Positions 41,361-50,563 of a DNA stretch of 64,000 bases are shown here, one piece after another. Numbering within the stretch: the stretch's first letter is position 1; each line of letters starts with the position of its first letter. Location of the stretch: positions 2,846,506 to 2,910,505 of the forward strand of contig OX638316.1 of the NCBI GenBank assembly GCA_951812525.1, in the 5' to 3' direction. This stretch comes from an uncultured Poribacteria bacterium (lineage in GTDB: Bacteria; Poribacteria; WGA-4E; WGA-3G). Below the pieces are notes generated by a model, which worked only from the letters and a program-made list of their open reading frames with translations, ran no database searches and was not told the origin of the DNA. Made by a program: the position numbers and the translations under genes.

Positions 41361-42137
41361 TTAACGTCCTTCTTTAAGGTAACCCCAAGTTGTCGAGAGT
41401 TTCCCGGCTGCTTCAACAGCGAGAGCGTCCACTCCCTGCTCCATAAACTCGTTAATCTCATCTTCGCTCAACGCACGATTCCAGAGACGAACCTCGTCGA
41501 TAATTCCAGCAAAAATGTAGTTAAGACGTTCGCAATCCTGGCCAATCCGCCACGGGTCATCGTTGGCACCGAGTTTGCCGGGGACATCCCCTTCAATTTC
41601 CTCGTTACCATCGATGTAGATTTTGCCTTTCTTCGTGTCGTTGGTGAAAGCGATATGAATAAATTTTCCAGTGTCGGGCAAATCGGTTGCAATATCGGCT
41701 CGTCCGGCTTCCGTTTCAAAGCGGAGTTTGAAGGTACCGCCTTCACTGAACAGACCGTATTGGACCCTGCCACCGCAGCCGCCGTGGACGGATTTACCTA
41801 CAATTTGGCGTGTGCCGTTCCAATGCTCGGCGTTAACCCACGCCATAAATGTCATTTCATCCACGTTGAGTTCCGCTGTGCTTTCAACGGTGACGAATGT
41901 GCCACTGTTTTCACCCTCGAACTCCAATGCTTTTCCAAATTTTCCGTCAACCCAATTCGGGCTATCAATTTCACCCTCGTGTCCGTTACCACTCAGATCT
42001 TCGGCTTTAGCACCAGCCCCTTCATCGTAAGCGTGGTATAGTACCAAACCATCCAAAAATTCTTCTGGACCAATAGACATCGCGAAGGGAGTCAATGCCA
42101 AAAGCATAGCGATTGATAAACAAATAGTTAATTTCAT
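41361..42137 (-). CDS. Exported LamG-domain protein with GKL-TW tag
   Basis: A 258-aa protein: signal peptide 'MKLTICLSIAMLLALTPFAM', one LamG domain ('DGLVLYHAYDEGAGAKAEDL', 'FIHIAFTNDTKKGKIYIDG', 'GIIDEVRLWNRALSEDEI') and the C-terminal tag 'AAGKLSTTWGYLKEGR'. AAGGAGG lies before the ATG and a consensus promoter lies upstream. It is a close paralogue of the protein at 44276, sharing long blocks such as 'TRQIVGKSVHGGC' and 'DDPWRIGQDCERLNY'. Probably a periplasmic or surface carbohydrate-binding protein; the ligand is not known. Confidence 0.88.
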   Translation of the reverse strand: MKLTICLSIAMLLALTPFAMSIGPEEFLDGLVLYHAYDEGAGAKAEDLSGNGHEGEIDSPNWVDGKFGKALEFEGENSGTFVTVESTAELNVDEMTFMAWVNAEHWNGTRQIVGKSVHGGCGGRVQYGLFSEGGTFKLRFETEAGRADIATDLPDTGKFIHIAFTNDTKKGKIYIDGNEEIEGDVPGKLGANDDPWRIGQDCERLNYIFAGIIDEVRLWNRALSEDEINEFMEQGVDALAVEAAGKLSTTWGYLKEGR

Positions 42138-42359: not shown

Positions 42360-44171
42360 TCAAACGTTCAAGCCGAGTTGATCGCTCAGTTCCACCAAAC
42401 GCCTGTTAATTCCTGTTTTGTCGATACGATTTCCGTCTACGAATTCTTGGTATGTTGGTAGCAGTGCCTCTGGGATCATTATGCGAGAATTGGCTTCTCG
42501 AAGTGCTAATAACCCCATAAATAGCTGCATCTCCGGTGAATATGCGGGTATGAAATCGTCTAAGGCTTGACGTAGGTCGGATTCCGTGAGCCGATCGCGT
42601 TGATTATGTTTCGCGATATTGTGTGCGCGTTGGACAATTAGGAAAAGATCGCGCCAGGTCAACCCGTCTGTCCCTGCTTCTCCAACGAGTGCACGGAAGT
42701 TAATCTCGTGTTCGGTTTGTCCTTGACAAAAGATCCTCAAAATTTCCATTCTACCTTCTGCGATTGGTGGTAACATAATGAGCTTCGTGTCGAAAATGCC
42801 GTACTGACGAAAAATCTGCGGCATCAAATCCGGACGGTGCGATGCCCCGACCCATATCACTCTACCGTGTAGCGACGGATCACTGATAGCGTTCACAAGG
42901 CTTTGCGGAAACGGCTGCCGTTCTTCGGGATGCATACTTGTATGTGGCGGTGCCTGCTCAATTTCATCCATAAAGACCACTACAGGTGAAATTCCGCGGA
43001 TAAAACTGATAGCAGCTTTCAAGTTTCGCTCATAAGAATTCCCGTTTTCATTGATGTTGGCTACCACCTCGCCGACCTGACTGGCGTAGCGGAGTTGTAC
43101 AAACGTCATATTCGCTTCGCCAGCGAGTAACTGCGCCGCGTAAATCTTACTAGTGCCGGGCGGACCCAAAAAAAGGACACCGCGTGGCACGCGCCGTAGA
43201 TCCCGATTTTTCATCCCCTCCGCAATATTCCTAATTGTCCACATTACATACCAACCGTCAGCATCGGAATTTGTCTGCGTTTCACCCAGTTCCAAGACAC
43301 CGTGGCTGAAGGCTCTAATGCTCTCACGCCGGTATCTCACAAGCGGTTCACCACCGGCTTTCTGCTCCGCCGATTCTGCTTGCCGAACGACATCGTGAAT
43401 GCCGAAGAGGTTGAGTCCTATGGTATCACGTGCCAACATCTCTCTATCGCGATCGTCGTCGAGGGTTTTGCGCATCTGCGATGAATCATCTGAAATGGCA
43501 TGTAAATGTTCAATAAAGTGGTGTCGTTGGCGGTAATCTGGAAACGGAATTTCTATCACAGGGATCTCTGGATTAACAGTGAGGCTCGGATGAATATCAA
43601 AAGTGTTTTGGGTGAGGAGTAGTATAATGTGTCCACGTCTTCGAATCTCTAAGTCGGAAGCCCAATTATGGATCCGACTGAAAAAGCGGTATGAATCGTA
43701 GCTATCTCCTCTGCCCAAAGAAAGATAGTTAGGTGCCAGCTGCTCCAGGAAATTGATAACCAATCCAACTTTTGCTCTACCTTGGTGTAGGAGATTGTTC
43801 AGTTGCTCTTGTAGTTCCTCCGATGGTTCTGGATCGACATTTATAAACGAGTCTTCATGCGGTTTATCGATTGCCAAATTGGCGTTGATTCTCGGGCGTT
43901 CAGTTTCCGGTACTTCTTCATCTGAAGGGATGAGTTTTAGCATCTTCTGCGTATTTTGTCGCCGCCCAATATTCGGCCAAATGATCCCTTGTGACGTGTT
44001 ATATCCGAGAACAAGATCACAACCTAACACATTAAGTTGCTCCATGAGATAGTCGAGGGTAGGCAGGTAGCCGTAAACATCGTCATACAGGAGGTCCTGT
44101 ACGTTGAAATGGAGCAGAAATTCGTGTGCGGAACCTGCGTTATAGTATCTTTTTACCTGTTCCCAAAACAT
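42360..44171 (-). CDS. AAA+ ATPase with divergent Walker A, Ycf46-like layout
   Basis: A 603-aa cytoplasmic protein. The N-terminal half (about 1-250) looks like a degenerate ATPase-like domain ('VGLVINFLEQLAPN', 'GHIILLLTQN', 'IPVIEIPFPDYRQRHHFIE') as in Ycf46-type proteins. The C-terminal AAA+ module has Walker A 'GPPGTSKI' at 336-343 instead of GPPGTGKT, Walker B 'VVVFMDEIEQA', sensor 1 'VIWVGASHRPD', and 'RQYGIFD' where most relatives read R-x-G-R-F-D. The altered P-loop Thr and missing Arg suggest weak or atypical ATPase activity. It lies between two LamG paralogues on the same strand. Partner unknown. Confidence 0.8.
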   Translation of the reverse strand: MFWEQVKRYYNAGSAHEFLLHFNVQDLLYDDVYGYLPTLDYLMEQLNVLGCDLVLGYNTSQGIIWPNIGRRQNTQKMLKLIPSDEEVPETERPRINANLAIDKPHEDSFINVDPEPSEELQEQLNNLLHQGRAKVGLVINFLEQLAPNYLSLGRGDSYDSYRFFSRIHNWASDLEIRRRGHIILLLTQNTFDIHPSLTVNPEIPVIEIPFPDYRQRHHFIEHLHAISDDSSQMRKTLDDDRDREMLARDTIGLNLFGIHDVVRQAESAEQKAGGEPLVRYRRESIRAFSHGVLELGETQTNSDADGWYVMWTIRNIAEGMKNRDLRRVPRGVLFLGPPGTSKIYAAQLLAGEANMTFVQLRYASQVGEVVANINENGNSYERNLKAAISFIRGISPVVVFMDEIEQAPPHTSMHPEERQPFPQSLVNAISDPSLHGRVIWVGASHRPDLMPQIFRQYGIFDTKLIMLPPIAEGRMEILRIFCQGQTEHEINFRALVGEAGTDGLTWRDLFLIVQRAHNIAKHNQRDRLTESDLRQALDDFIPAYSPEMQLFMGLLALREANSRIMIPEALLPTYQEFVDGNRIDKTGINRRLVELSDQLGLNV

Positions 44172-44275: not shown

Positions 44276-45064
44276 TTAACGATCGGTCTTGATATCGCCC
44301 CAAGTAGTGGCTAATTTCGCAAGAGGATCGACAGGGGTAAGCAAGCCTTGTCCCATGACGATTTCATCGGCACTCAATGCGCGGTTCCAGAGGCGAACCT
44401 CGTCTATCGCACCCGCGAAAACGTAGTTAAGGCGTTCACAATCCTGCCCGATTCGCCACGGATCGTCGTTTGCATTCAACGCGCCTGGCACATCGCCTTC
44501 GGCAACGGATTCACCGTTAATATAAATTATCCCTTTTTCACCATCGTTGGTAAAAGCAACATTAATCCACTCACCGGTTGCCGGGAGATCGGTTGTGATA
44601 TCGGCTCTGCCACCATCGGTCTCAAAGCGGAGTTTGAAGACACCACCCTCGCTAAACAGGCCGTATTGTGTTCTACCTGCACAGCCACCGTGGACGGATT
44701 TACCTACAATTTGGCGTGTGCCATCCCAATGATCGGCGTTAATCCACGCCATAAATGTGCACTCGTTCACGTTCAAGGTACCCGTGCTCTCAACAGTGAC
44801 ATAGGCATCACTGCCTTCACCACCAAAGCGAAGTGCGCCGCCGAATTTGCCAGAATCCCAATCCGGATTGGAAATTTCACCATCATGACCATTTCCACTC
44901 GCATCTGCAGCGGTTGTACCTTGCCCTTCATCGTAGGAATGATGTAGGACAAGTCCTTCTTTAAGATCTGCCGAGACGAACGGTGTGAATAACATCGATA
45001 GTGCTACCAAGAAGCACACAGTTCCGTAAAAGGAAAACGAGCAAGTCAATATTGTGTTTTTCAT
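44276..45064 (-). CDS. Exported LamG-domain protein, paralogue, with variant tag
   Basis: Start at the ATG at 45064, which follows AAGGAGG by 8 nt; the longer frame is the ribosome site itself. 262 aa: signal peptide with core 'GTVCFLVALSMLFTPFVSA', LamG domain ('EGLVLHHSYDEGQGTTAADA', 'WINVAFTNDGEKGIIYING', 'GAIDEVRLWNRALSADEI') and an ending 'AKLATTWGDIKTDR', a diverged copy of the shared tag. Closest relative in the window is the 41361 protein. The promoter is equally close to consensus. Function unknown; probably a ligand-binding surface or periplasmic protein. Confidence 0.88.
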   Translation of the reverse strand: MKNTILTCSFSFYGTVCFLVALSMLFTPFVSADLKEGLVLHHSYDEGQGTTAADASGNGHDGEISNPDWDSGKFGGALRFGGEGSDAYVTVESTGTLNVNECTFMAWINADHWDGTRQIVGKSVHGGCAGRTQYGLFSEGGVFKLRFETDGGRADITTDLPATGEWINVAFTNDGEKGIIYINGESVAEGDVPGALNANDDPWRIGQDCERLNYVFAGAIDEVRLWNRALSADEIVMGQGLLTPVDPLAKLATTWGDIKTDR

Positions 45065-45092
45065 GTTTTTCCTCCTTGAAAAATATAGCAAC

Positions 45093-45122
45093 ATTATAGC
45101 AGATTTTTAATGACGCTGTCAA
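45093..45122 (-). promoter_or_regulatory. Promoter of LamG paralogue
   Basis: TTGACA (45122-45117) and TATAAT (45098-45093) on the minus strand with an 18-bp spacer, 28 bp before the ATG at 45064. Divergent from the MATE promoter 50 bp away. Confidence 0.8.
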
Positions 45123-45297: not shown

Positions 45298-46671
45298 ATG
45301 AAAAAAGCACGGGGCGATTTGACCCGTGGAAGTCTTTTTAGACACCTTCTACGGCTCTCGGTACCGATAATATTCAGCTACATTCTCCAAGATGCCTTTA
45401 ACATCGTTGATATGATTTTCGTCGGGAGACTTGGTCCCGGTGCGATAGCGGCTGTCGGCGTGAGCGGCAATTTGCTCCGATTAATCGGTGTCTTCTCGCT
45501 CGGTGTCTCAACCGGTGCTGGGATTATGGTAGCGCAGTATCTCGGTTCCCGAAACCTAGCTCAGGCTGAGCACATTGCGATGCAGGCAATCCTGCTGTCT
45601 GTTTTCTTCTCCGTTGGCGTTACGCTTGTGGGCTACCCGCTGGCGGAACACGGATTACGTGCTGTCCGAATGGTTGATCCAGAGGTGCTACGTCTCGGAA
45701 CAACTTACATGCATATCACGCTCGTGGGTATCAGCACAATGTTTGTATCTTTTACCCTCGGTTCTATCTTCCGGGCTGGCGGGGACTCGTTTACGCCAAT
45801 GGTCGTGTTAGTCTTTTCAACATTGATTAACATTGTGTTAGATCCGTTATTGATTTTCGGCTTGTGGGGATTCCCTAAGCTCGGGGTTGCTGGGTCGGCA
45901 TACGCAACGCTAATCGGACGTGGCACGGGAGCGGTTGTGCTACTTTATCTATGTTGGACGAACCGCGCACCCGTTTCGCTGCGACGCGTTCAATATCGAG
46001 TGGATTTCTCAGAAATGCTTGACATTTTAAGGCTCGGTGTTTATAGTTCTATGCAAGGGTTCTGGCGGCATTTCTCAAGACTCGGTTTCTTATGGGTAAT
46101 TGGACCCTATGGTAAGACTATCGTTGCCGCATATACAATTTGCATGCGACTTCGGATTCTGGTAATGAATCCAGGTTTTGGTATTGCAAACTCAGTTTCA
46201 CCGTTGGTTGGGCAAAATTTAGGCGCGAATCAGATGGAACGTGCCGAAAAAGCGACCCAGATCGCGAACCTTTTCGGTGCTGCGCTCATGGCAGTAATTG
46301 GGGCAGTTTTTCTCGTTTTCCCAGAAACGTTCGTTCGGATCTTCACACCGGATGAGACTGTCATCGAAATTGGTGCTGTTTATTTGCAGTTTCTGTCTCC
46401 AACATTTGGATTTATCGCTTTTTCGCTTATTTTGGGCAGAGCACTCAATGGAGCTGGTGATACGCGTTCTCCAATGGTGATTACGCTTGTTTCACAGGTA
46501 GGGATCGGCTTAGGACTTGTGATTCTACTGTCCCACCTGATGGGACTTAACGGTGTTTGGTTGGGCATTGCGCTCTCAAATGTCGTGCAAGGGATCGTAA
46601 TGTGGCTTTGGTATCGTACTGGAAGATGGAAAGCAATAAAACTTATTAAAAAGGTGCCGAAACCGGCGTAG
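45298..46671 (+). CDS. MATE-family efflux transporter
   Basis: Inner-membrane Na+/H+-driven exporter of organic cations, drugs or metabolites. 457 aa with about 12 helices in two homologous halves. Family features: 'SVPIIFSYILQDAFNIVDMI', 'FVGRLGPGAIAAVGVSG', 'GAGIMVAQYLGSRN', 'SIFRAGGDSFTPM' and, in the second half, 'SVSPLVGQNLGANQMERA' and 'GRALNGAGDTRSP'. The rhodanese gene follows 51 bp later and may be cotranscribed. The transcript has a structured leader. Substrate unknown. Confidence 0.92.
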   Translation: MKKARGDLTRGSLFRHLLRLSVPIIFSYILQDAFNIVDMIFVGRLGPGAIAAVGVSGNLLRLIGVFSLGVSTGAGIMVAQYLGSRNLAQAEHIAMQAILLSVFFSVGVTLVGYPLAEHGLRAVRMVDPEVLRLGTTYMHITLVGISTMFVSFTLGSIFRAGGDSFTPMVVLVFSTLINIVLDPLLIFGLWGFPKLGVAGSAYATLIGRGTGAVVLLYLCWTNRAPVSLRRVQYRVDFSEMLDILRLGVYSSMQGFWRHFSRLGFLWVIGPYGKTIVAAYTICMRLRILVMNPGFGIANSVSPLVGQNLGANQMERAEKATQIANLFGAALMAVIGAVFLVFPETFVRIFTPDETVIEIGAVYLQFLSPTFGFIAFSLILGRALNGAGDTRSPMVITLVSQVGIGLGLVILLSHLMGLNGVWLGIALSNVVQGIVMWLWYRTGRWKAIKLIKKVPKPA

Positions 46672-46722
46672 GGCAACTGAAGCACACCAACGGCATCCTA
46701 AATAATTTCAGAAGGAGTTGCA

Positions 46723-47559
46723 ATGGCAGGTTACAAGGGCTATGAGAATCCGCAGCTGATTATCTCTGCTGAGGAATTGAAAGGCACGCTGGACGATGAA
46801 ACGTTCTGCATTGTCGATACGCGACCGACTTATGAATATCTGCGGGGGCATATCCCTGGCGCACTTCATTTGGATCTGTTCGGTTTAAGCCTGATTGATA
46901 CCAGCAAAGAGACTTTTGATACCTTCATGTGGATGATAGCGTATCTATTTCAGCAACGCGGACTCGATCCGGGGAAACCCATTGTATGGTATGAGGACAT
47001 CTCTGGAACACGTGCTTCTCGGGGATTTTGGTTTTGTGAGTATTTGGGACATCCCGAAACCCGTTTGCTGGATGGTGGTTTCAAGGCGTGGTTAGCAGCC
47101 GACGGACCTGTGAGTACGACGGGTGTTGAACCGCCGGACGTGCCACCCTTTCCGATAAACGCTAAACATGATACGCACATGGATGCTGATGTGATCCGTG
47201 TTCTGCTAAGTCGAGACGATTTTATCCGTCTCGATACGCGTACCGATGATGAACATTACGGCAGAGTTGCCCGTGCAGAACGCCCTGGCGCGATTCCGGG
47301 CTCTATTCACATTGAGTGGCTTGATAACCTTGATGAAGAGGGGGCTTTTAAATCTGCCGATGAACTCCGACAAATGTATGAAGCGGTCGGTATTACACCC
47401 GATAAGCAGGTAATGTGCTACTGACAGGGCGGATACCGCTCTTCTCAAGCCTATTTGGCGTTGCGGCTTTTGGGATATCCGAAAGTGAGCAACTACATTG
47501 GGTCGTGGAAAGAGTGGGGTGACCGGCTGGATTTGCCGGTCGAAATTCCGCAGGCTTAG
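46723..47559 (+). CDS. Two-domain rhodanese sulfurtransferase with in-frame TGA at catalytic Cys (candidate selenoprotein)
   Basis: Thiosulfate or 3-mercaptopyruvate sulfurtransferase type with two rhodanese domains. The N-terminal domain has '[20 protein letters not shown]' and 'DGGFKAWLA'; the second has '[20 protein letters not shown]' and '[13 protein letters not shown]'. At codon 234 (47422-47424) the frame meets TGA, then continues without interruption with '[19 protein letters not shown]' and '[20 protein letters not shown]' to TAG at 47557. Relatives have Cys at exactly this place (Y-C-Q-G-G-Y-R-S). A Sec in place of the catalytic Cys is the simplest reading. A hairpin at the right distance follows. 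Alternatives are a recent nonsense mutation or one-base sequence error. GAAGGAG precedes the ATG. Confidence 0.8.
47426..47469 (+). promoter_or_regulatory. Candidate bacterial SECIS hairpins after the TGA
   Basis: Just after the TGA a 7-bp hairpin forms (47426-47442, stem AGGGCGG/CCGCTCT, loop ATA). A second stem AAGCC/GGCTT (47447-47451 with 47465-47469) has a 13-nt loop containing GG at 47457-47458. The second loop begins about 28 nt after the TGA, within the range where bacterial SelB binds. Both structures are also coding sequence, so chance folding is possible. Confidence 0.45.
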
Positions 47560-47661
47560 TACGTCCCTGAAGATGAGGATATCTGGGTACTCATTCCTGA
47601 GGCGGTTTTTATATCGAACTCAGGTTAAATAATACGATATGTTACCAGATATGGACGCTGC

Positions 47662-48390
47662 CTACTCATTTGGCGTGAGGCAACGAACACAGATTTCTGC
47701 AACTTCAGTTGGACATTCGTGCGGTAGGTAATGTCCAGCGTTGGGAATCCAAACCCATTGGATCATCGGATTGGGCGGAACGCGCAACTGTTGTTCAGTT
47801 GAATCATTCCGTCCCATACCGCCAAAGGTTTCATAGATTGGGATGCGCGCTTGTTCGAGGTAGGTGTAGCCATCGAAATTTTTAACGGATTCCCAGAAGT
47901 TGTTCCAGACCTCGGACTTAAAGCGATTTTGCGTCTCTTCAGATTTCCGCTGAATTTGCACAATCGCTGTTTGTAGCAGCGAACCATAAAATCGTCCGGG
48001 GTCAAACGCACTACCCGCTGACGAGAGGCTTGTCCATCCTTCCAACAAAACCAGCCCAGCAACACACGGTGAACGCCTCGCTACCTCCATCGCCACCATA
48101 CCGCCAAGACTGTGCCCCACAATCACTAACGATTGAAGACTCAAATAGTTTACGAGATATAAAACATCCTCGGCGAGGTTGGTTAATGTGAAAGATTGCG
48201 TGGGTACTGTGCTCTGCCCATGCCCGCGAAAATCGAGAGCGATGCAGCGTCCATTGCGTGGTAATCCTTCAATCACCGCTGTCCAGTCCGATGAATCACA
48301 TCCAGTGCCGTGTAAGAAAAGAAACGGCTGACCTGAATTGTCTGAATCCAAGTAAGCCATTTCTCCCCAGTCCATTGGAATTTTTATCAT
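47662..48390 (-). CDS. Alpha/beta-hydrolase
   Basis: Serine hydrolase of the alpha/beta fold, 242 aa from the ATG at 48390 ('MIKIPMDWGEMAYLDSDNSG'). The longer frame overlaps the neighbouring gene and is rejected. Features: oxyanion strand 'FLFLHGTGCDSSDW', 'IALDFRGHGQST', nucleophile elbow 'VIVGHSLGGMVAMEVARR' and the catalytic His in 'PNAGHYLPHE'. It follows the amidohydrolase with a 16-bp gap, which suggests a shared catabolic task. Substrate unknown. Confidence 0.87.
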   Translation of the reverse strand: MIKIPMDWGEMAYLDSDNSGQPFLFLHGTGCDSSDWTAVIEGLPRNGRCIALDFRGHGQSTVPTQSFTLTNLAEDVLYLVNYLSLQSLVIVGHSLGGMVAMEVARRSPCVAGLVLLEGWTSLSSAGSAFDPGRFYGSLLQTAIVQIQRKSEETQNRFKSEVWNNFWESVKNFDGYTYLEQARIPIYETFGGMGRNDSTEQQLRVPPNPMIQWVWIPNAGHYLPHECPTEVAEICVRCLTPNE

Positions 48391-48406
48391 AACGCACGAT
48401 TTCGCT

Positions 48407-49252
48407 TCAGGTCGATAAATTCCAGATCTGTGCTGCTGTACCGCCGAGTATCCGATCTTTGTCATTCTCGGTCAAGAAGGGGAGTCCTTCCGTGATGAGG
48501 CGGAGTTCCTGCCCCAAAGAGGGCCAGTTGTGTTTTTGTCTGTGATGTCCAGGATATCCGGTTCCCCATACCGTCCGTGACGCACTGAAAGCTGACAGTA
48601 ATCTCTCTATGAACGGATGGACATCTGTATACGGAAAATCTTGATTAGAGCGTCCGGCAACATCTGATAATTTGAAGTAAACATTATCGTATTGAGCGAG
48701 TTCCACAATGGGTTGGAAAGCGGCTGCGTCGGCATCTATTTGTGGATACCCCATGTGATCAAGGATGAGTGTAAGATGCGGATACTGTTGCGCGATGACC
48801 GCAACCTGATCGGCAAACTCAGCGCGCAGGTGGAATTGGATAATCGCGTCCAGGGCGGCGATCTCTTCCCACATCGGTCCGTTCTGCCGAGTTAGCAGTA
48901 TCTTCTCATCGGGATAGTACATCGGATGGAAACGGAAGCCTACCAAGCCCCTATCTTTTATCCAATAGCGGACCTGTTCTGCGTTCTTTGGGTCTTGTGG
49001 ATCAATTAAACCGTGTCCGATGAATCGGTCTGGAAAGCGTGCCACCGAGTCTGCTATATAACCGTTATCCCATGTTGACCAACTCGTTTGAACCAGGATT
49101 GTCCAGTCCACGCCGTGTACGTCCATTTCCGCCAGTAGTTCGTCGGCGGTACCGGGTTCATCTGGATAGGAATTCCAAGTTGGGGCAGTGGGACCAACTG
49201 GATATTTTGGTGGATCAATTTCCCAAACATGAACATGGGTATCTACAATCAT
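48407..49252 (-). CDS. Amidohydrolase family 2 metal-dependent hydrolase
   Basis: TIM-barrel hydrolase/decarboxylase-like protein (amidohydrolase_2), 281 aa. The start has GAGG 8 nt before the ATG. Motifs: 'DTHVHVWEIDPP' (metal His pair), 'HPMYYPDEKIL'-type strand with 'FRFHPMYYP', 'LILDHMGYPQID', and near residue 230 'TVWGTGYPGHHR'. In most relatives the last motif is W-G-[ST]-D-[WY]-P, where the Asp is a metal or catalytic ligand; here it is Gly. It may therefore use a different metal set or be inactive. Next to an alpha/beta hydrolase in one operon. Confidence 0.85.
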   Translation of the reverse strand: MIVDTHVHVWEIDPPKYPVGPTAPTWNSYPDEPGTADELLAEMDVHGVDWTILVQTSWSTWDNGYIADSVARFPDRFIGHGLIDPQDPKNAEQVRYWIKDRGLVGFRFHPMYYPDEKILLTRQNGPMWEEIAALDAIIQFHLRAEFADQVAVIAQQYPHLTLILDHMGYPQIDADAAAFQPIVELAQYDNVYFKLSDVAGRSNQDFPYTDVHPFIERLLSAFSASRTVWGTGYPGHHRQKHNWPSLGQELRLITEGLPFLTENDKDRILGGTAAQIWNLST

Positions 49253-49274
49253 TCATAACTCCTCGTCCCTGAAT

Positions 49275-50477
49275 TTAGAACAGGAACTGCGCATCAACCG
49301 TTTCCCCGGCGCGTAGCGTTACCCCTGCTGGCACGGTGATCAATCCATTCGCTAATACAAGAGAATGGAGAATACCTGATCCTTGGGGTCCAGTTGTTTC
49401 AGCGGTGTATTGCCCATCGGATTCTCTGAGGATCGCACGCATATAATTAACGCGTCCATCTCTATTCGTAACGGATTCTGCGAGGGTTGCTTTGAAGGTC
49501 GGACGCAACAAATCTATGTGTCCCGCCATTTTCAAAAGTGCCGGACGCACAAAGAGCTCAAACACGACAAGCGAAGAGACCGGATTACCGGGCAATCCAA
49601 AGATTGGCTTTCCATCTGCGATGCCGTAAGCCTGTGGTTTTCCCGGCTTCATAGCGACGCGCCAGAAGTTAATCTTACCTAATTTTTCCAAAACACTCTT
49701 TACAATATCGTGCTCGCCTACCGAAACGCCGCCACTTGTGATAAGCGCGTCCGCTTCTGCGAGTGCGGCTCGAAAGATTCGCTCTGTTTCAGCCTCGTCA
49801 TCGCGCGCAATCCCCATGTCGATCGGTATACCGCCAGCCTCCTCGACTTGGGCATAGAGACCGTAGCGGTTGCTGTCCCGAATTTTTCCCGGTTCGAGCG
49901 ATTCACCGAGCGGTGTCAGTTCATCACCTGTTGAGACAATCGCAACGGTAGGCTTACGATGGACCGAGACCTCCGCGCAATTCAGAGAGGCAAGCATTGA
50001 GATCTCTGGCGGACGTAGGTGCTTCCCTTTTCCCATGACCAGGGTGCCTTCCTTGACACTTTCACCTGTGAAACGGACGTTTTCAGAATCCTCAACACTT
50101 TCAAAAATCTTGACAGTATTACCTTCTTGTTCGGTGACTTCCTGCATAACGACCGCATCAGCACCTTCAGGCATCATTGCCCCGGTCATAATACGCGCTG
50201 CTTGCCCTGCCTCGACCTGTTTTGTAGGCGCATACCCTGCAGCGATCATCTCTGCAACTGATAGAACAGCCGGGTTATCTTTGGAAATATCCTTTACGTC
50301 TGCTGCACGCACCGCATATCCGTCCATCGCCGAATTGTCAAATGGTGGGATATTTTCAGCAGCATGCAGCCCCTCTGCGAGAACATAACCGGTACAGTTA
50401 AGAATACCTCGCGTTTCCGTTGGTAAAACCGGGATTGTATTTAGCATCTGTTGACGGGCTTCTTTGACACTTAGCAT
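49275..50477 (-). CDS. moeA: Molybdopterin molybdenumtransferase
   Basis: Inserts molybdate into adenylated molybdopterin to make Mo cofactor. The start at 50477 follows GGAG by 10 nt; the frame extends upstream into the spacer. Conserved segments: 'ENIPPFDNSAMDGYAVRA', 'GQAARIMTGAMMPEGADAVV', 'PTVAIVSTGDELTPLGE', 'ALITSGGVSVGEHDIVK', 'FWRVAMKPGKPQAYG' and 'PIFGLPGNPVSSLVVFELFV'. About 400 aa. With mobA at 61.6 kb it shows that the cell makes Mo cofactor; no Mo enzyme is in the window. A divergent metal-uptake promoter lies upstream. Confidence 0.96.
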   Translation of the reverse strand: MLSVKEARQQMLNTIPVLPTETRGILNCTGYVLAEGLHAAENIPPFDNSAMDGYAVRAADVKDISKDNPAVLSVAEMIAAGYAPTKQVEAGQAARIMTGAMMPEGADAVVMQEVTEQEGNTVKIFESVEDSENVRFTGESVKEGTLVMGKGKHLRPPEISMLASLNCAEVSVHRKPTVAIVSTGDELTPLGESLEPGKIRDSNRYGLYAQVEEAGGIPIDMGIARDDEAETERIFRAALAEADALITSGGVSVGEHDIVKSVLEKLGKINFWRVAMKPGKPQAYGIADGKPIFGLPGNPVSSLVVFELFVRPALLKMAGHIDLLRPTFKATLAESVTNRDGRVNYMRAILRESDGQYTAETTGPQGSGILHSLVLANGLITVPAGVTLRAGETVDAQFLF

Positions 50478-50563
50478 ATAATTTTTTCTCCTTTGTGTAA
50501 GTTTGTATAGAATATAATAAAGCATCACACTGATAAGTGCAAGCCCATCTTTTCAAACTTCGT

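Follow-up and report, generated by a model that had tools for sequence, protein, structure and literature searches.

At positions 46723-47559 (+ strand) of the window, that is, the whole stretch of 64,000 nucleotides analysed, lies the reading frame of a two-domain rhodanese (sulfurtransferase, COG2897/PF00581 type) with an in-frame TGA, and the question is whether this TGA ends the gene or encodes selenocysteine (Sec). The frame begins at an ATG just downstream of a putative ribosome-binding site, GAAGGAG (46711-46717, + strand), runs through 233 codons up to the TGA (47422-47424, + strand), which is codon 234 and the only internal stop, and continues with 44 sense codons to a TAG at 47557-47559. 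An open stretch of 44 codons is by itself unremarkable, as such lengths are commonly stop-free by chance; a chance readthrough frame is excluded because of the homology and because the TGA is conserved in 67 of the 70 Poribacteria genomes that have the gene. A gene caller treating TGA solely as a stop would cut the rhodanese at residue 233, and the active site would be lost. The window was also scanned for further frames with a single TGA, and no other candidate was taken up from it.

With codon 234 read through, the protein has 278 residues and two PF00581 rhodanese domains (5e-36). Among solved structures it is closest to tandem rhodaneses, namely RhdA of Azotobacter (1e0c, E 2e-39) and a Thermus enzyme (1uar). 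The predicted structure, in which Cys was modelled for Sec, has a mean pLDDT of 93.1 and matches both nearly over the full length (Z 32.9 for 1uar and 32.2 for 1e0c). Codon 234 lies in the active-site loop of the C-terminal domain; this arrangement, with two PF00581 domains and a C-terminal catalytic loop, is characteristic of COG2897-type two-domain rhodaneses. The first-pass annotation, made from the sequence of the window, had placed the sole internal stop at the catalytic Cys position and had likened the 44 codons after it, up to the TAG, to the C-terminus of the family; the alignment to RhdA, whose active-site Cys aligns with codon 234, confirms both.

Selenocysteine machinery and the meaning of TGA

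The genome is a single contig of 5.06 Mb, 96% complete, and the named assemblies closest to it are without exception MAGs of Candidatus Poribacteria. The selA, selB, selC and selD genes, which had been proposed as the first thing to look for, are all present: SelA scores 514.7 bits, SelB 336.1 bits (above the curated cut-off) and SelD 358.5 bits, the last with its own in-frame TGA near the N-terminus, and a tRNA-Sec with anticodon UCA (78.1 bits) lies around 40 nt from selB. Among near genomes, tRNA-Sec is above the cut-off in 52 of 60, and selB is present in each genome with the Sec form that was tested for it. This agrees with the enrichment reported for sponge-symbiont genomes, where SelA and SelB co-occur in most symbiont bins and are absent from most related references (PMC5649159).

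Regarding the decoding of the TGA, a suppressor tRNA or a change of the code could give Cys or Trp, and the presence of Cys at that site in homologues would fit with this. However, the tRNA-Cys has anticodon GCA and the tRNA-Trp has CCA, and among the tRNA loci scanned no second tRNA with anticodon UCA was seen besides the tRNA-Sec beside selB. The rhodanese gene has no TGA at other positions either. Furthermore, six orthologues (L037, L065, L067-L069 and L076) have a terminal TGA as well as the internal one, and therefore TGA means Sec and stop at once in these genes. The earlier claim that TGA is also an ordinary stop here, and not a Trp reassignment, is thus borne out by the six genes and the CCA anticodon, and we consider decoding as Cys or Trp very unlikely.

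Conservation of the TGA and of the codons around it

We surveyed 85 Poribacteria genomes and counted the gene at E <= 1e-80, which gave 70 genomes. Exactly one internal TGA was found in 67 of them and none in the other three, which belong to one family (f3) and have TGC or TGT at the Sec position. At the codon 234 site of 80 loci from named assemblies we found TGA in 71 cases and TGC or TGT in nine, and no other codon; this is the alternation that the first-pass annotation expected if homologues were aligned. Assemblies with the MAG labels Latescibacterota, Gemmatimonadota and Nitrospinota, which are taken as given here, have the Sec form as well. A sequencing or assembly error at 47424 (the reads were not inspected) is untenable, because dozens of assemblies, made independently in different projects, have the same codon, and its probability is practically negligible.

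A quick maximum-likelihood tree needs three changes between Sec and Cys, whose direction and number are not firm, since several branches are long or unsupported. Two of the three Poribacteria with the Cys rhodanese (G037 and G040, loci L071 and L070, from another family) nevertheless retain selB and tRNA-Sec, whereas in the third (G042, 80% complete) neither was seen. Loss of the Sec machinery as the cause of a switch from Sec to Cys is thus not general. Sec is then dispensable for the fold, since three Poribacteria have Cys instead, two of them along with the machinery.

In order to compare selection on both sides of the TGA, 41 codons either side were examined in 34 sequences of the same genus. 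The 41 codons after the TGA showed no gaps, with 24 codons varying only synonymously and 4 changing the residue, versus 19 and 19 for the 41 codons directly before it. On this codon comparison, the codons 3' of the TGA are under purifying selection, and decay of the frame after the TGA, which had been named as a pattern that would speak against Sec, is absent.

These results also bear on the possibility of a Cys-to-stop mutation, leaving either a pseudogene or a truncated protein without the catalytic loop. Such a mutation needs one base only, as TGA is one step away from TGC and TGT, and the 233-residue product would be an open frame. Nevertheless, 67 of 70 Poribacteria genomes share the TGA, as do relatives assigned to other phyla, the gap-free downstream codons are under purifying selection, and truncation would entail loss of the catalytic loop, all of which stands against it. 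The first-pass annotation had called this explanation less parsimonious; we go further and regard it as refuted by the conservation of the TGA, with hardly any probability left to it.

Three of the features by which bacterial selenoproteins are recognised are found at this locus: a TGA aligned with Cys and homology on both sides of it, selA to selD in the genome, and conservation together with purifying selection. The gene at 46723-47559 is almost certainly a genuine selenoprotein gene, and the initial reading as a Sec rhodanese gains support from the machinery, the conserved TGA, the downstream selection, the fold and the active-site position.

The recoding signal

Bacterial SECIS elements lie in the region just around or after the UGA. 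We scored the conservation of synonymous codons at sites with a conserved residue and found it raised where a SECIS would be expected, at codons -2 to +16 (47416-47472, + strand), with a mean excess of 0.467 versus 0.176 elsewhere, the first of 167 windows scored. In a broader set of 71 sequences, scored over 119 windows, the codons around the TGA were again at the top. The same genomes also have a Cys paralogue, in which conservation rises less at the equivalent place (0.252 vs 0.153); part of the signal therefore goes with the active site, and the remainder is specific to the Sec genes. Synonymous codons are invariant in one more stretch, CGG CTG GAT TTG CCG at 47524-47538 (codons +34 to +38), far outside the usual SECIS range; its CGG, CTG, GAT and CCG are fixed in 43 of 43 Sec sequences.

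Four candidate structures were compared in 36 Sec orthologues, and covariation above shuffled controls was found for none of them. Immediately 3' of the UGA, the hairpin AGGGCGG-AUA-CCGCUCU (47426-47442, + strand) pairs in 94% of cells, but most of the kept pairs lie where the Gly-Gly-Tyr-Arg codons fix the bases. A two-part hairpin pairs in 86.5% of cells, and a candidate SECIS stem-loop of 11 bp with bulges (47443-47475, + strand), whose loop UUUGGCGU starts 29 nt after the UGA, pairs in 75%. The fourth is the hairpin of the first-pass annotation, GCC-UAUUU-GGC (extended with CAA/UUG), described there as having a GG-containing loop around 28 nt after the TGA. It does form in the sequence of the window, but its loop has no G, and with pairs in 67% of cells and no covariation it is not conserved.

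RNAalifold gave no common fold beyond +21 on the Sec orthologues, and an Rfam scan of 46600-47700 found nothing at E values up to 10. We also applied the bSECIS rule, which asks for a stem-loop 16-37 nt 3' of the UGA and a G in the first two loop positions. The published criteria include an energy limit of -7.5 kcal/mol, and the best hairpin with a G in the loop in the window has about -6.8 kcal/mol, so that it is a borderline case (PMC13188914). The hairpins fitting the published consensus showed no consistent excess of energy over synonymous shuffles. Regarding the same rule, the selD gene (L020:1501-2424 = G000:C1:3914052-3914975) is itself a selenoprotein gene, with its in-frame TGA in ...TVKCAG-U-ASKLAPGEL..., and this TGA is followed by a compact hairpin, GGCUCC-AGG-GGAGCU, whose AGG loop conforms to it.

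As a mechanism we propose that SelB, carrying Sec-tRNA(UCA), would insert selenocysteine at UGA 234, directed by an element of the mRNA that would overlap the next ~50 nt after the UGA.

Function, precedents and genomic context

Rhodaneses work through a persulfide on the catalytic Cys: thiosulfate or a comparable donor gives up its sulfane sulfur to the Cys, which passes it to an acceptor. The product of this gene would be a 278-residue tandem-domain rhodanese whose N-terminal domain is without a catalytic residue and in whose C-terminal domain a catalytic selenolate would replace the usual thiolate. This selenolate may be loaded with sulfane sulfur by thiosulfate, persulfides or another such donor, forming a Sec-S selenosulfide, and then hand the sulfur on, and/or may outpace a thiol against oxidants of the glutathione or peroxide type. 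The most likely function is thus selenolate-based sulfane-sulfur transfer and/or thiol-redox chemistry. To our knowledge, a Sec-S selenosulfide is known as a catalytic intermediate for no characterised rhodanese.

We favour sulfur transfer as the main reaction, with moderate confidence. A main role in redox chemistry, that is, GSH-dependent removal of peroxides or radicals, possibly with a C232-U234 pair, is the less probable of the two, though a serious contender. Thiol oxidoreductases are the homologues of most predicted selenoproteins (PMC9312934), and Cys230 of RhdA, its only Cys and the equivalent of U234, is needed for glutathione binding and the scavenging of glutathione thiyl radicals, and it can also hold persulfide sulfur (PMC3458005). 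In this scavenging Sec could be advantageous, we infer. The loop U-Q-G-G-Y-R-S is invariant among 81 of 81 distinct Sec forms, and the Cys two residues ahead of Sec (C232, giving CYU) is found in 69 of them, which would suit a redox pair. However, UxxGxR is a regular sulfurtransferase loop, and the other 12 forms have Pro or Ser in place of C232, which is therefore no obligatory or universal resolving residue.

The neighbouring genes were examined as well. Upstream of the rhodanese lies a MatE transporter gene, and downstream, on the opposite strand, MoeA is encoded; both neighbours are common within the genus and not elsewhere, and no conserved partner gene was found in the neighbourhoods compared. 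As this linkage is restricted to close relatives, no functional partner can be named, and since the neighbours are uninformative and C232 is not obligatory, the choice between sulfur transfer and redox chemistry remains inferential.

Regarding precedents, the first-pass annotation implied an unprecedented finding, which does not hold. Sec-containing COG2897 rhodaneses were already predicted in 2005 from Sargasso Sea data (3 sequences; PMC1088965), and the GOS data of 2008 added Sec rhodaneses of cd01449 (8 sequences) and COG2897 (1 sequence; PMC2398784). COG2897 (SseA) is in a selenoprotein listing of 2022 (PMC9312934), and a review of 2026 describes a 'Rhodanese-like domain-containing protein form 4' with the motif UxxG and the published example MCY3690685.1 (PMC13188914). 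The gene studied here belongs to the same COG with Sec for Cys, and its U234-Q-G-G237 fits UxxG; its assignment to form 4 is by the domain (PF00581) and the motif. Other rhodanese-domain families with Sec fit less well: the protein scores 35.8 bits with NF041203 (rhodanese-related (seleno)protein, form 3, CxU; curated cut-off 115) and 23.3 with NF045694 (TsoB, form 5; cut-off 805), both far below the cut-offs. It is also below the curated cut-off of NF008557, the equivalog of 3-mercaptopyruvate sulfurtransferase (99.8 vs 250 bits).

In comparison with the characterised RhdA of Azotobacter vinelandii (1e0c), the Poribacteria protein is likewise tandem-domain, with 30% identity and U234 aligned with the catalytic Cys230, whereas RhdA has Cys in a CQTHHR loop and the Poribacteria protein has Sec in a UQGGYR loop. 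The Cys paralogue of the same genomes (G000:C1:2224444-2225271) is a two-domain rhodanese too, with 32% identity and a YCRIGERS loop, but it has TGC or TGT in 38 of 38 genomes examined and weaker synonymous conservation around the site.

The literature searched yielded no biochemical work on a Sec rhodanese and no publication mentioning both Poribacteria and selenoprotein. On sequence grounds, it is very well supported that the Poribacteria gene is a member of the already predicted, uncharacterised class of Sec rhodaneses. What is new is the breadth: the reported cases of Sec COG2897 are few, whereas by our survey Sec is the standard form of a phylum, dominant across Poribacteria and common to other phyla too. 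What had been a sparse metagenomic prediction is now a clear orthologous family that uses Sec as a rule throughout the phylum. As a sister family offers natural Cys counterparts and the same cell also has a Cys paralogue, the benefit of selenium to a rhodanese is directly testable. A stronger proposal is that this lineage-wide Sec rhodanese of sponge symbionts and related phyla both carries sulfane sulfur as a stable Sec-S and uses a class of bSECIS outside the published consensus; taken together we consider the two rather unlikely, and offer them as a speculation.

Two further observations concern the surroundings of the gene. On the - strand at 47662-50528, convergent with the rhodanese, there are genes for an alpha/beta hydrolase, an amidohydrolase and MoeA, whose order is retained in much of the genus. 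Two genes for Laminin_G_3 (LamG-like) proteins, at 41361-42137 and 44276-45094 on the - strand, lie either side of an AAA-ATPase gene (42360-44171), all upstream of the MatE gene.
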